Assembly (NCBI GenBank): GCA_027627705.1
Contig: CP091242.1
Span: 1,910,677 to 1,974,676, forward strand
Origin: Hyphomonadaceae bacterium BL14
GTDB lineage: Bacteria; Pseudomonadota; Alphaproteobacteria; Caulobacterales; Maricaulaceae
DNA: 64,000 nucleotides
Direction of reading: 5' to 3'
Positions within the stretch are counted from its first letter, which is position 1; every line of letters begins with the position of its first letter. The notes beneath the pieces were generated by a model. It saw only the letters and a list, made by a program, of their open reading frames with translations, ran no database searches and was not told the DNA's origin. Made by a program: the position numbers and the translations under genes. Of the stretch, positions 14,797-47,436 are shown piece after piece.

Positions 14797-15882
14797 ATGG
14801 GCTGGGCGCTGAGCATTGATCAAGTCAACATCACGGACGCCGCCATTGTGGAGGCCGGGGCGCGCGCGCTTGAACACGGCGAAGCCCGCCTGGCCGTGCG
14901 CCGCTTTGCGCTGACCGCCAACAACATCACCTATGCAGCCTTCGGCCAGGCCATGGGCTATTGGCGCTTCTTCCCCGGCCCGGACGGGCGCGGGCGCCTG
15001 CCGGTGTGGGGCTTTGCGCAGGTGACCGAAAGCCGTGCACCAGGGCTGGACGTGGGCGAGCGCGTCTATGGCTATTTCCCCGCTGCCAGCGAGCTGGTGG
15101 TCACCCCCGGCAAGATCCGCCCCGACAGCTTCATCGATGCGGCAGACCACCGCTCCGCCCTGCCGGCTGTGTATAACCGCTATGTGCGCTGCGCCGCCGA
15201 CCCGGCCTATGACCCGCAGCGCGAGGCCGCACAAATGGTGCTGCAGCCCTTGTTTCTCACCTCCTTCCTGATCGACGCGCATTTGCGCGACACCGGCTTT
15301 GCCGGCGCGCAGCGCATCACCCTGACCAGCGCATCCAGCAAGACCGCCCTGGCGCTCGCCTTCCTTTTGGGACGCAGCCGGCCAGACGGCCTGCGCATCG
15401 AGGCGCTGACCGCGGCACGCAATGCGGCCTTTGTGGAGGCGTCGGGGCTGTATGACGACATCACCGATTACGACGGCATCGCCGCCATGGACCCCGCCCC
15501 TGCCCGGTTGATCGTTGATTTCGCCGGGGCGGCGGATGTGAACCGGGCGCTGCACGGGCGTTTCGGCGACAATCTGAAAGCCAATATCCGCGTCGGCGGT
15601 GCCCATTGGGATGACAGCGCGCCCGCATCTGATCTGCCCGGACCCAGACCCGCCTTTTTCTTCGCGCCCGACCATGCCCGCGACCGCATCGCCGAGTGGG
15701 GACCGGACGGATTCGCCAAACGCCAGGGCGAAGCCTGGTCGCAGTTTGTCGCCGCAGCCGATGACCTCCTGGCCTGGCGCAGCCTCACCGGCGGGGCGGA
15801 GGCTTTGGGTGCGTACCAGTCGCTGGTGCGCGGCCAGGTGCCCGCCAGCGAGGCGCTGGTGGTCGAGGTGGAAGAGCGCTGA
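14797..15882 (+). CDS. DUF2855 family protein
   Basis: A 361-residue protein recognised as DUF2855. Its plan resembles medium-chain dehydrogenase/reductase proteins: an N-terminal part with NNITYAAFGQAMGYWRFFP and VYGYFPAASELVV, and a central Rossmann-like stretch with TSASSKTALALAFLL. No catalytic zinc motif is seen. AAGGAG just upstream supports the ATG. Members are often annotated only as hypothetical, and the substrate is unknown. It sits between ppk2 and glnD in a same-strand run. Confidence 0.82.
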   Translation: MGWALSIDQVNITDAAIVEAGARALEHGEARLAVRRFALTANNITYAAFGQAMGYWRFFPGPDGRGRLPVWGFAQVTESRAPGLDVGERVYGYFPAASELVVTPGKIRPDSFIDAADHRSALPAVYNRYVRCAADPAYDPQREAAQMVLQPLFLTSFLIDAHLRDTGFAGAQRITLTSASSKTALALAFLLGRSRPDGLRIEALTAARNAAFVEASGLYDDITDYDGIAAMDPAPARLIVDFAGAADVNRALHGRFGDNLKANIRVGGAHWDDSAPASDLPGPRPAFFFAPDHARDRIAEWGPDGFAKRQGEAWSQFVAAADDLLAWRSLTGGAEALGAYQSLVRGQVPASEALVVEVEER

Positions 15883-41546: not shown

Positions 41547-42617
41547 TCACCCCTCCGGGAAAAAACGCCGCGTGCGGTTGGCCAGCGCGACCAGCGAGAG
41601 CATCACCGGCACCTCCACCAGCACGCCCACCACGGTGGCGAGCGCGGCGCCGGAATTGACCCCGAACATGACGATGGCCACCGCCACGGCGAGCTCGAAG
41701 AAGTTCGATGTACCGATCAGCGCGCAGGGCGCGGCGATGCGGTGGGGCGTCTTCCACGCCCAGGCCGCCACATAGGCGATGGCGAAAATGCCATAGGCCT
41801 GGATGAGCAGCGGCACCGCAATCATGGCGATGACCAGCGGACGTTCCAGGATTACATCGCCCTGAAAGCCGAACAGCAAAACCACCGTGGCGATCAGCCC
41901 GATGACCGAGGCCGGTTTGACCCGTCCGGTGAAGGCGGCCACCCGCGCCTCGCCATCCGGCCTGGCCAGCCCGCGCGTCAGCCACAGCCGCGTCGCAATA
42001 CCGGCGGCCAGCGGGATCACTACATACAGCACCGTCGACAGGATCAGCGTGTCCCAGGGCACGGCGATATCGGTGACCCCCAGCAGGATCGCCACCAGCG
42101 GCGCGAAGGCGAACACCATGATGACGTCATTGGCCGCCACCTGCACCAGCGTGTAATTCGGGTCGCCTTTGGTGAGCTGGGACCACACGAACACCATGGC
42201 GGTGCATGGCGCGGCGCCCAAAAGGATCAGTCCGGCAATGTATTGTGTGGCGTCTTCGGGCTCGATGAAGGGTGCAAAGACAAACTCGAAGAACACCACT
42301 GCCAGAGCCGCCATGGAAAAAGGCTTGATCAACCAGTTTACGACGAGGGTGATGACCAACCCTTTGGGCTTGTCACTCACCCGGGCGAGGCTGGTGAAGT
42401 CCACGCTGATCATCATCGGGTAGACCATGGCCCAGATTAGCACCGCCACAGGCAGGTTCACCGAGGCGTATTCCAGCCCCGCCAGCCCATTGAACGCGCC
42501 AGGAAACACATAGCCCAGCCCGACCCCGGCCAGGATCGCCAGCGCCACCCAGACCGAGAGCCATTTTTCAAACAGGCCGATCCCGGCGGCGGGCTTGTCC
42601 TGGGCGATATCGGTCAT
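41547..42617 (-). CDS. acr3: ACR3-type arsenite efflux transporter
   Basis: A 356-residue inner-membrane carrier with ten hydrophobic helices that exports arsenite using the proton motive force. The central [18 protein letters not shown] contains the conserved Cys, and [12 protein letters not shown] and [12 protein letters not shown] are other ACR3 marks. It is in the ACR3 (BASS-related) family rather than E. coli ArsB. It overlaps arsC by ATGA. Confidence 0.96.
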
Positions 42618-43096
42618 GAACAGGCCTCATGGGCGGCTTTGAGGGCGGCGCTCAGCGCCTTGGGATCGTGCGGGCCGGCACCCGAGGCCAGCACATGCCG
42701 GACGCGCGCGTCCAGCGCCGCATACGTCGCCTCAAAGGCCGCGCGGCAGGTGTCCGGATCATCGATATGGGCCGGATCTGGCAGGCCCCAGTGGGCGCGG
42801 GACGGCGCGCCGGGCCAGACCGGGCAGGGCTCGCTGGCCGCTGAATCGCATACCGTGATCACAGCATCCATGACCGGCGCGCCCGGCACCTCGAACTCAT
42901 CCCAGCGCTTGGAGCGGAAGCCGGAGATGTCATGACCATGGCGCGCCAGCGTGGCGAGCGCCTCGGGGTGCGGCTGCCCCTTGGGATTGGACCCGGCGGA
43001 GAAGGCGGTGACGCGCCCCTCCCCCAGCGCGGCGAACAGCGCCTCGCCCAGGATCGATCGCGCCGAATTGCCCGTGCACAGGATCAGAACATTCAT
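42614..43096 (-). CDS. arsC: Arsenate reductase, thioredoxin-type
   Basis: Reduces arsenate to arsenite for export. The 160-residue protein has the low-molecular-weight-phosphatase-like loop LCTGNSARS at residues 6-14, the SAGSNPKGQ segment and the redox pair CDSAASEPC near 83-91. This is the type that uses thioredoxin. ATG 43096 is chosen because it leads straight into MNVLILC. It is the first gene of the operon, downstream of the operator shared with arsR. Confidence 0.93.
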
Positions 43097-43140
43097 CGCA
43101 CGCCCCGCCATCAAACCGGTTTTGCCGCTCATGAGAGACC

Positions 43141-43182
43141 GTGATACGATCCTCATTTCAATATTTCAAGAGATATTGAAAT
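43141..43182. promoter_or_regulatory. ArsR operator and arsC promoter
   Basis: ATTTCAATAT (43155-43164) and ATATTGAAAT (43173-43182) are a perfect 10-base inverted repeat with an 8-base spacer. On the minus strand TTGAAA (43169-43164) and TATCAC (43146-43141) lie 17 bases apart, a good promoter for arsC. The repeat covers its -35 box, so ArsR binding would block it. Confidence 0.75.
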
Positions 43183-43206
43183 GGGCACTGAAACGAGAGA
43201 AGGCGC

Positions 43207-43557
43207 ATGACCGCAGATACGCTCGCAACAGGCCCTGAGGCCCTCACCGGCCAGGCCTCCGCCCGCCTGGGCGCACTGGCGCACGAGACGCGGCTGACTG
43301 TATTTCGCGCCTTGATGCGCGCCGGTCCCGGAGGGCTGGCGGCGGGGGCGCTGGCCGATGCGGCGCAGGTCAGCGCGTCCAATCTGTCATCCCATCTGAA
43401 CGTCCTGCTGGGTGCCGGGCTGGTCACGGTGCGCCGGGACGGGCGCCAGCGCATCTATGCGCCGGACCTTGACGCCGTGCGCGAGCTTCTGGGCTTTCTG
43501 GTCAATGAATGCTGCCAGGGCGCGCCGGAAGTGTGTGGCGGTCTGGTACGCTGCTGA
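43207..43557 (+). CDS. arsR: ArsR-family arsenic-responsive repressor
   Basis: A 116-residue winged-helix repressor. The DNA-binding part is AQVSASNLSSHLNVLLGAGLVTVRRDGRQRIYAP. Arsenite-binding cysteines are likely those of NECCQGAPEVCGG near the C terminus, the location seen in the alphaproteobacterial-type ArsR with C-terminal site. It is divergent from arsC and should repress both sides through the 43155-43182 repeat. Confidence 0.93.
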   Translation: MTADTLATGPEALTGQASARLGALAHETRLTVFRALMRAGPGGLAAGALADAAQVSASNLSSHLNVLLGAGLVTVRRDGRQRIYAPDLDAVRELLGFLVNECCQGAPEVCGGLVRC

Positions 43558-45623: not shown

Positions 45624-46567
45624 TGCGCCGCCGGCTTGCGGAACAGCAGTGTCATACGGTCCGATTCCCCGATCTCTTCAAAAGGCGCACGGTCAAAGGA
45701 CGGGTCATGCGGCTCGCCCAGCGGCGAGGTGCGGCTCACCGGCGGCAGGGTCCAGACCCCGAACGGATGGTCTGCTGTGTCCGCCGGATTGGCGTTGATC
45801 TCGCTGGCGCTGACGAGCTCAAACCCCGCCTCCACGGCGAGTGCGATGACGTAGTCTTCCTGCACATAGCCCGACGCCGCGCGCGGATCCTGGACCCGGT
45901 TGGCGGGCAGGCGGTGCTCCACCACGCCCAGAAGCCCGCCGGGCCTGAGCGCCTCGAACATGGCCTCATAGGCCGTCTCGACAAAGCCGCCGGCCATCCA
46001 GTTATGGGTGTTTCGGAAGGTCACGATGGCATCGGCAGTGCCGGGCTCAAGACCGGTGAAACCTTCAGGGCCGAAAGCAGACAGGTTCAGGCTCCCGAAC
46101 GCGGGCTGCTCAAAGCGCGCCGCGAACCGCTCGCGCAGGGCCAGTGCGCCCGCATCGTCCGGCTCAACCGCCGTCCAGGCCGCCACATAGGTTCCGCCAT
46201 GGGCTGCAATCCAGGGCGCGAGAATATCGCTGTACCAGCCCCCGCCCGGCCAGATCTCAACGATGGTGGATGCCGGATCGAGGGTAAAAAATTCCAGCGT
46301 GTCCAGAGGGTTGCGCGCTGCATCGCGCGCCCGCGCCGCCGCATCGCGCCAAGGCGCTGCTGTGACATCGCCCAGCCGGGTGAAGTCCAGCGCTTCGGCG
46401 GTCTCCGATCCGCCGCCATCCTCCGGCGCGGCGTCGCCGGCAGCCGGTACGGGCTCTTGCACTGCCGGCGCGTCGGGATCGGGTGCCTCACCGCCGCATG
46501 CGGCGAGCCAGAGGCTGAAACCGGCGCAAAGCGCCAGCGCGGAAACAGGGCGGGCAGACCGGATCAT
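45620..46567 (-). CDS. Exported methyltransferase-like lipoprotein (COG4798 type)
   Basis: A 315-residue protein with a lipoprotein signal (WLAACGG) and an Ala/Pro/Glu linker. The rest has the plan of a class I methyltransferase: TIVEIWPGGGWYSDILAPW as motif I, DAIVTFRNTHNWM and LRPGGLLGVVEHRLPA. This group of predicted periplasmic methyltransferase-fold proteins is widespread, but SAM is not known in the periplasm, so the real activity is unclear. It is coupled to the secreted gene downstream. Confidence 0.82.
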   Translation of the reverse strand: MIRSARPVSALALCAGFSLWLAACGGEAPDPDAPAVQEPVPAAGDAAPEDGGGSETAEALDFTRLGDVTAAPWRDAAARARDAARNPLDTLEFFTLDPASTIVEIWPGGGWYSDILAPWIAAHGGTYVAAWTAVEPDDAGALALRERFAARFEQPAFGSLNLSAFGPEGFTGLEPGTADAIVTFRNTHNWMAGGFVETAYEAMFEALRPGGLLGVVEHRLPANRVQDPRAASGYVQEDYVIALAVEAGFELVSASEINANPADTADHPFGVWTLPPVSRTSPLGEPHDPSFDRAPFEEIGESDRMTLLFRKPAAQ

Positions 46568-46641
46568 CAGGCAACTCCGTTTGGGTCAGGCCCATAAGTC
46601 ATGGCCAACACCCGGGGATACGGCAAGTCGGCGGGGCGCCT

Positions 46642-46670
46642 CTTGCAGAGCGCAAAATCGATTCCCACAT
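46642..46670 (+). promoter_or_regulatory. Weak candidate sigma-32 promoter for the Hsp20 gene
   Basis: CTTG at 46642-46645 is followed after 18 bases by CCCACAT at 46664-46670. This only partly fits the heat-shock sigma factor pattern. It would give a leader of about 145 bases. Confidence 0.25.
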
Positions 46671-46772
46671 CGGTTTCGTCGGGCCGCCAGACGGGGCCTG
46701 ACATTCGCACGGCCCTTTGTGTGCGGCGCTGCCGAGGCGGGCCGGACAGGGGGGCGAACAGCCACTGCAAAG

Positions 46773-46820
46773 GGCGTTCTCCCCTGCCGGGAGCACGCCG
46801 GATCGCTTCGAAGGAGGATC
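46773..46820 (+). promoter_or_regulatory. ROSE-like RNA thermometer
   Basis: Two adjacent hairpins precede the Hsp20 start. The first (46773-46799) pairs GGCGT with ACGCC and CTCCC with GGGAG around a CTGCC loop. The second (46801-46820) pairs GATC-G-CTTC with GGAGGATC around a GAA loop, leaving one bulged G. It contains UCGCU opposite AGGA of the ribosome site, matching the ROSE rule UYGCU opposite AGGA. Heat would melt it and free the ribosome site. Confidence 0.75.
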
Positions 46821-46823
46821 ACG

Positions 46824-47309
46824 ATGCGTACTGTAGACTTCACCCCGCTTTACCGGACCATTGTCGGCTTTGACCGGCTGGCTGACATGATCGACACCGC
46901 TGCCAAGCAGGAGACCGGTGTCGCTTACCCGCCCTACAATATCGAGCAGGTCAGCGAGCACGAATACCTGATCGAGCTGGCCGTGGCCGGATTTTCGGAA
47001 AACGATATTGATGTCGAGGTTCAGGAAAACGTCCTGTCCGTGGCCGGCAAGCGCGCCGTCAGCGACACACAGGAGGCGCGCAATTTCCTGCATCGCGGCA
47101 TCGCGGAACGCTCGTTCGAGCGGCGCTTCCACTTGGCTGACCATATCCAGGTCCGAGATGCGCGCCTTGAGAACGGGCTTCTGACGATCCGCCTCGAGCG
47201 TGAAGTACCCGAGGCCATGAAGCCGCGCCGGATCGAGGTCAATGGCCGCACCGATGGCCGGACCGGCGCCAAGCTGCTCTCCGGTGCCAAAAAGGCGTCT
47301 GCCGCCTGA
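46824..47309 (+). CDS. Hsp20/alpha-crystallin small heat-shock protein
   Basis: A 161-residue IbpA-like chaperone that holds unfolded proteins. The alpha-crystallin domain covers about residues 35-135: YNIEQVSEHEYLIELAVAGF, ENVLSVAGKRA, RGIAERSFERRFHLADHIQV and ARLENGLLTIRLEREVPE. The C-terminal tail carries the PRRIEVNG motif, a variant of the I-x-I-type anchor. AAGGAGGA at 46811-46818 is a strong ribosome site, hidden in the ROSE-like hairpin. Confidence 0.95.
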   Translation: MRTVDFTPLYRTIVGFDRLADMIDTAAKQETGVAYPPYNIEQVSEHEYLIELAVAGFSENDIDVEVQENVLSVAGKRAVSDTQEARNFLHRGIAERSFERRFHLADHIQVRDARLENGLLTIRLEREVPEAMKPRRIEVNGRTDGRTGAKLLSGAKKASAA

Positions 47310-47407
47310 TTGCACAGATGAGCGACGGACCGGCCGGGCGCGATCCCCTCCCCCCAAGCCCGTGCCCGGCCGGGTCCGATATCTGCACACTTGTTCCCCT
47401 GACTGAC

Positions 47408-47436
47408 CCGGCGCGCCGCTTCCCACGGCGCGCCGG
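47408..47436. terminator. Hairpin between the convergent Hsp20 and 47458 genes
   Basis: CCGGCGCGCC and GGCGCGCCGG form a perfect 10-bp stem with a 9-base loop, 99 bases after the Hsp20 stop. A second, looser stem (GGCCGGGC with GCCCGGCC) lies just upstream. No T-run follows, so this is a possible terminator. Confidence 0.45.

Follow-up and report, generated by a model that had tools for sequence, protein, structure and literature searches.

Classical ROSE elements have three to four hairpins and occur in rhizobia, Caulobacter, Salmonella, and Escherichia coli, and a form with two hairpins has been tested at Pseudomonas ibpA, according to the excerpted text of PMC3669281, which also describes the role of the hairpins that do not sense temperature as not fully understood. 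Excerpts of two further papers place ROSE elements at small heat shock protein (sHsp) genes in Sinorhizobium and Gluconobacter (PMC2873474, PMC5756330), and ROSE-like motifs are reported at two sHsp genes of Nautella in an excerpt whose comparison tables include Oceanicaulis (PMC3230580). In another ROSE-like element, deletion of the bulged G led to notably less heat induction, which was abolished when a second change was added (PMC11342760, excerpted text). In E. coli, the IbpA protein represses its own translation via the 5′ untranslated region (UTR), for which R93, R97/K98, and an aromatic residue at position 34 are needed (numbers counted from the alignment with the protein studied here), and the authors of that work suggest such self-repression in alphaproteobacteria too (PMC10474464, excerpted text).

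Here we analyze the leader of an ibpA-type gene in a 64,000-nucleotide stretch of the genome of Hyphomonadaceae bacterium BL14, called the window throughout. An initial annotation had recognized a ROSE-type thermometer at 46773 to 46823, had described it as very short with two clear stems, and had presented the class as one known in rhizobia; this last description is right for rhizobia but too narrow, given the Caulobacter, Salmonella, and E. coli elements (PMC3669281, excerpted text). We found no description of this particular leader element in the open-licence papers searched.

RESULTS

The gene downstream of the leader.

The coordinates of the leader features and of the gene are collected in Table 1. 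The gene matches the Pfam HSP20 family (PF00011) at E 5e-20 and is the sole HSP20 match in the genome at E 0.001, and in an alignment that starts at residue 1, its protein shares 53% identity with E. coli K-12 IbpA across 140 residues. The name ibpA is used as a best-match description, since the score of the protein with the NCBIfam IbpA model NF008013 (166.7 bits) is under the cut-off of 212. The nearest named matches are Oceanicaulis metagenome-assembled genomes (MAGs) and Marinicauda. An open reading frame (ORF), 46263 to 47309, runs in phase with ibpA and across the whole leader without a stop between 46263 and the gene, and automatic gene callers might for this reason place the ibpA start too early.

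TABLE 1 Features of the ibpA leader and gene, in window coordinates
Feature	Position	Strand	Description	Basis or value
Sigma-32-like heat shock promoter	46642..46671	+	CTTGCAG at 46642, CCCACATC at 46664-46671	
Hairpin A	46678..46702	+	5′ hairpin: 8 bp, bulged G, 2 bp, 4-nt loop	
Hairpin B	46712..46755	+	Long hairpin in the middle; conserved least	Minimum free energy (MFE) fold of 46675-46838
Hairpin C	46773..46799	+	Strong; ten pairs, one internal U·C mismatch	−18.3 kcal/mol
Hairpin D	46801..46820	+	Presumed thermosensing hairpin, encloses the ribosome site	Folds and covariation in 43 leaders
U(U/C)GCU ROSE motif	46803..46807	+	Here UCGCU, G46805 bulged	T[TC]GCT kept across ibpA loci
Shine-Dalgarno (SD) sequence GGAGGA	46813..46818	+	Paired within hairpin D	Sequence
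ibpA-type small heat shock protein gene	46824..47309	+	161 aa, ATG at 46824	Hsp20 family

The ribosome site lies in a hairpin with a bulged G.

Hairpin D is formed by the outer pairs G46801-C46820, A46802-U46819, U46803-A46818, and C46804-G46817, followed by the bulged G46805 and by the inner pairs C46806-G46816, U46807-A46815, U46808-G46814, and C46809-G46813. AGGA (46815 to 46818) stands opposite UCGCU, the SD strand has no bulge, and 3 nt separate the hairpin from the ibpA ATG. The arrangement given in the initial annotation, with the ribosome site in this hairpin, UCGCU against AGGA, and one bulged G, is exact base for base. On its own, hairpin D (−6.3 kcal/mol) is only mildly unusual compared to shuffled sequences, with a z score of −1.87 and 7 of 200 shuffles equally stable, and its energy falls inside the range of −4.1 to −7.6 kcal/mol given for Pseudomonas sensor hairpins in the excerpted text of PMC3669281. 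Deletion of G46805 is predicted to make the hairpin more stable, with an energy of −8.7 instead of −4.9 kcal/mol at 37°C. In a thermodynamic model of 46678 to 46838, run without a control hairpin, the fraction of the SD sequence predicted to be unpaired rises from 0.017 at 25°C to 0.053 at 37°C and 0.113 at 45°C, so that the modeled opening of the ribosome site with temperature is gradual.

Conservation and covariation of the presumed sensor hairpin.

At each of the 110 ibpA loci read first, the motif T[TC]GCT is found no more than 35 nt from the start, and with AGGA, GGAG, GAGG, or AGAA accepted as the ribosome site, it precedes that site at all 137 alpha- and gammaproteobacterial ibpA loci (the first 110 plus 30 added, minus 3 duplicates among these 140); the loci were picked by protein similarity, with one set of 20 being a hand-picked spread over genera, and they are related, so the counts do not represent independent events. 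Three further duplicate pairs among the 137 leave 134 distinct leaders, of which 122 have the exact pattern of this genome (motif-AGGA-ATG) and the remaining 12 deviate in the ribosome site or the spacing. The window's own family is represented by 40 genomes, 31 of which are within the main set, and the motif is also present in all 9 of the others. The motif counts leave out four weak Hsp20 paralogues (L122, L123, L124, and L168), which are second, weak Hsp20-like matches in relatives; one of them has an internal TGA.

For comparison, the 3.03-Mb genome contains 2,773 AGGA-N-ATG sites, many of which are not gene starts, and 40 of them (1.4%) have the full pattern TYGCT-N-AGGA-N-ATG. Within the window, the motif was found at 0 of 40 SD-preceded ORFs, a control that includes spurious ORFs and excludes ibpA itself, whose long open frame puts its start outside the scanned part.

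We then counted base changes in hairpin D across 43 leaders (42 distinct), which comprise 41 from the window's family, L026 from a sister family, and L034 from Marinicauda. Pairing was kept in 85.0% of cells, compared to at most 57.0% when the pairing was slid, and there were 45 cells with two-sided changes, compared to 21.4 after shuffling. The covariation score was 0.348 versus 0.195 and was reached by none of 500 shuffles. This covariation sits in the flanking stem, where G-C changes to U-G, U-A, or C-G, while the UCGCU/AGGA core is nearly invariant; the two outermost counted pairs are often unpaired (in 23 and 19 of the 42 leaders). Thus, hairpin D is set above chance by the conservation of its motif at all 137 and all 9 loci together with paired base changes, and barely by the single sequence.

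Three more hairpins precede the presumed sensor hairpin.

In 15 same-genus leaders, a second conserved hairpin is seen about 120 to 150 nt before the start, and its counterpart in the window is hairpin A, with the sequence GUCGGGCC-G-CC-AGAC-GG-GGCCUGAC. For hairpins A and D together, 97.8% of cells in these 15 leaders are paired, whereas slid versions reach 58.5% at most. Two-sided changes are seen in 20 cells, compared to 7.3 after shuffling; such changes fall at 5 of the 10 pairs of hairpin A. The bulged G and the CC-loop-GG tip are nearly fixed, and the stem covaries. A scanner for this architecture detected hairpin A at 62 of 140 loci, including 14 of the 15 in the genus, and in 14 of 2,800 first-order resampled controls. 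Among the 78 loci that it missed are most of the gammaproteobacterial ones and also some alphaproteobacterial ones, including two from the window's family, L010 and L020.

The initial annotation had also noted a strong hairpin directly upstream of hairpin D, and hairpin C is indeed present there, with a stability (z score, −3.99) that none of 200 shuffles matched. Two-sided changes occur at 5 of its 10 pairs in six close relatives, to which the count was confined because MAFFT misaligns this hairpin across the 15 genus leaders. Hairpin C was not detected at some same-family or near loci where A and D remain (z scores of 1.75 at L006 and 0.99 at L034). Hairpin B is partly present in the RNAalifold consensus of the six close relatives, and 85 to 94% of its cells are paired in these leaders with zero two-sided changes, which makes it the weakest of the four. 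The consensus of the six closest leaders contains all four hairpins, with 91.1% of cells paired compared to at most 53.7% when slid.

Thus, the features recognized between 46773 and 46823 are real, but that range is merely the 3′ part of a conserved leader which begins at about 46675. The reading of the element as very short, with two clear stems, is not supported, as the strongly conserved hairpin A and the weakly conserved hairpin B lie upstream and inside the likely transcript. With its putative transcript start, the leader is most likely about 147 nt long and has four predicted hairpins.

A heat shock-like promoter lies just ahead of hairpin A.

The distance from CTTG to CCCA in the window is 18 nt, and we take CTTGCAG and CCCACATC to resemble the heat shock sigma factor consensus. 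A CTTG followed 17 to 18 nt on by a CCCA-type box is found upstream of hairpin A at all 15 genus loci, with the promoter scorer searching from −260 to −70 only, and the CTTG at 46642 is the sole one within 46600 to 46823. Among 25 other loci outside the genus, the scorer did less well, with no match at 3 and poor scores of 2 to 4 at another 3. A stricter heat shock promoter regular expression matched only two loci, neither of them the window. Since this strict expression failed and a looser scorer was used, the putative promoter stands on its position and conservation and not on statistics. A scan for sigma-70 promoters and intrinsic terminators found nothing. The location of the promoter just ahead of hairpin A implies that this hairpin would form the 5′ end of the mRNA.

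Predicted folds depend on the RNA ends.

The MFE structure of 46675 to 46838 has hairpins A, B, C, and D together, while the RNA that ends at the start codon (46675 to 46826) keeps D and loses A and C. The fold of 46740 to 46840 lacks hairpin C, and in that of 46773 to 46829 the register of D is shifted, so that the start codon is paired as well. This shifted register requires CGATG, which is present at 3 of the 15 genus loci. When the 15 genus leaders are cut at the start codon, A is found in the MFE structures of 13 (not in the window or L112) and the bulged form of D in 13 (not in L004 or L008); with 12 more bases, A is found in 15 and D in 14. Since the predicted folds vary with the cut, the case for the structure stands on covariation and not on single folds.

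Comparison with known thermometer classes.

Assignment of the ibpA leader to the ROSE type is well supported. U(U/C)GCU is paired to the SD sequence with a bulged G in the 3′-most hairpin, the leader stands directly before an sHsp gene as a 5′ UTR that would be transcribed with it, and it has the three to four hairpins with a stable 5′ hairpin of the class (with strong evidence for A and D, evidence from close relatives for C, and weak evidence for B). Covariation supports the pairing of A and D. Together with a 5′ hairpin like ROSE hairpin 1, these features bear out the initial reading of a ROSE-type element on an Hsp20 gene.

The Rfam ROSE family (RF00435) shares with this leader the last U(U/C)GCU-SD hairpin with its bulged G, just before an sHsp start codon. 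The two are also alike, as judged by eye, in a 5′ hairpin with a bulged G, a CC-4nt-GG tip, and GGCC flanks; the RF00435 hairpin 1 consensus printed on the Bradyrhizobium locus, to which we likened hairpin A by eye, reads cCgGccGCCuuauGGggCcGg and includes a single bulge and a loop of 4 nt. They differ in length, in that RF00435 has 94 model positions and the leader about 147 nt, with an extra or enlarged middle that the model does not match. An Rfam ROSE covariance search had been proposed in the initial annotation as a check, and when it was run, the leader was not recognized, either at the gathering threshold or at E values up to 10. The microRNA and other Rfam matches listed were far under their gathering scores and were taken as chance. 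Among 20 relatives searched at the gathering threshold, RF00435 was called in 2 (L105, Sphingomonas; L110, Bradyrhizobium), and it was called at none of 8 loci from same-order genomes, so this threshold misses leaders of the present kind. An Rfam match is a library threshold and not a biological defining feature of ROSE, and the longer middle of such leaders is the likely reason why they are not recognized.

We also built a covariance model, R1, from the 15 genus leaders and ran it on 59 sources. At E values up to 1 it gave 36 matches, 4 of them stray, and in 32 of the 59 sources the match ends exactly at the ibpA start codon; when the window is set aside together with L033 and L036, which are copies of training rows, this holds for 29 of 56 sources. 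At an E value of 0.01 or better, R1 matched 14 of 59 sources, or 11 of the 56 independent ones. It found neither L105 nor L110, both called ROSE by Rfam, and nothing at the start codon of any of the six gammaproteobacterial sources (L048, L049, L052, L057, L062, and L071). The whole class is not bridged by one model. In a search of the whole genome, R1 matched the ibpA leader at E 6.7e-21, and the presence of the same leader on other genes of the genome is not supported, the next best match having an E value of only 0.59. A weak stray match to the leader model in the window, at 15371 to 15424 (E 0.28), was taken as chance.

The leader resembles the short ROSE-like element of Pseudomonas ibpA in having a sigma-32-type promoter and a GC-rich hairpin ahead of a short SD hairpin, for which the calculated energies are close. 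The Pseudomonas element, as described in the excerpted text of PMC3669281, has two hairpins only, whereas the leader in the window has two more in front, which places it nearer to the classical three-to-four-hairpin ROSE elements. ROSE-like thermometers on ABC transporter genes have the same U(U/C)GCU with a bulged G opposite the SD sequence and differ in the gene that follows (PMC11342760, PMC12857270, excerpted texts). Elements of the ROSE-G type carry CUGCU together with another bulged G, which lies in the SD strand (PMC12857270, excerpted text); with UCGCU and an unbulged SD strand, the leader was not assigned to it. A fourU thermometer likewise has an SD-sequestering hairpin that heat opens, but the window has no run of four U's opposite the SD sequence.

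DISCUSSION

We consider it very probable that the ibpA leader forms a ROSE RNA thermometer of full length, made up of four hairpins, with promoter use, transcript start, and temperature response all predicted for it rather than observed. A heat shock sigma factor would transcribe ibpA from about position 46678. At low temperature, hairpin D would hold the ribosome site paired with UCGCU, in a pairing that the bulged G and the U·G pair would keep weak, and by analogy with tested ROSE elements, warming would open this hairpin and allow the ribosome to bind. Hairpins A to C may make the transcript more stable or favor independent folding of the sensor hairpin.

One alternative is that the functional element is a short, two-hairpin ROSE-like RNA of the Pseudomonas ibpA type, consisting of C and D alone. 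These two hairpins adjoin and each folds well alone, elements of this kind have been tested in Pseudomonas (PMC3669281, excerpted text), and the transcript start used here is a predicted one. However, hairpin A covaries, is laid out like ROSE hairpin 1, and lies right behind a heat shock-like promoter that is kept at all 15 genus loci, there being no second CTTG in the region; in addition, B appears in the consensus of close relatives, and it is C that is not seen at some same-family or near loci where A and D remain. We therefore regard the short form as very unlikely, and we give as little weight to the idea that the leader is merely a structured, GC-rich 5′ region with a heat response that is transcriptional and translation that is not gated by temperature. 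The heat shock-like promoter, the tendency of high GC content to favor hairpins, and the modest z score of hairpin D alone are all consistent with that idea, but GC richness does not give an SD-opposing motif at every one of the 137 loci or paired changes in the flanking stem. That the leader is coding is extremely unlikely: the open frame is in phase with ibpA, but homology starts at 46824, the in-phase frames of two relatives (G044 and G083) are just 159 aa, and the changes upstream of the gene preserve pairs.

The leader, hairpin D included, could also serve mainly for binding of IbpA in self-repression and not for direct temperature sensing. E. coli IbpA acts in this way via its 5′ UTR (PMC10474464, excerpted text), and the residues needed there align with R96, R100, R101, and Y35 of the window protein. 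The same E. coli leader is described as a thermometer too, which implies that self-repression adds to sensing and does not replace it, and we judge this alternative to be quite unlikely. A related proposal, which we offer as speculative and unlikely, is that hairpin A is a conserved IbpA docking site of alphaproteobacterial ibpA leaders for the self-shut-off of translation, in which case the leader would read both temperature and free chaperone.

Under the preferred reading of a four-hairpin thermometer, the sole HSP20-family gene of an Oceanicaulis relative carries a full-length ROSE element, predicted to act as a thermometer. The initial annotation was correct in recognizing ROSE, and the element is real; its length is most likely where our reading differs, in that the leader is most likely not unusually short but a fairly ordinary, full-length representative of a familiar RNA class. 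Hairpin A, with its nearly fixed tip, provides a testable lead on the role of the non-sensing ROSE hairpins.

Two further observations concern the surroundings of the leader. Soon 3′ of the ibpA stop, a large GC-rich inverted repeat without a T run lies at 47325 to 47380, within a region (47305 to 47410) with an MFE of −42.1 kcal/mol and a z score of −3.55; this repeat is a possible transcription end or mRNA-stabilizing stem. Farther upstream, at 42614 to 43557, there is a pair of short divergent ORFs, which by eye we take to resemble an arsenate reductase-type protein and an ArsR-type regulator.
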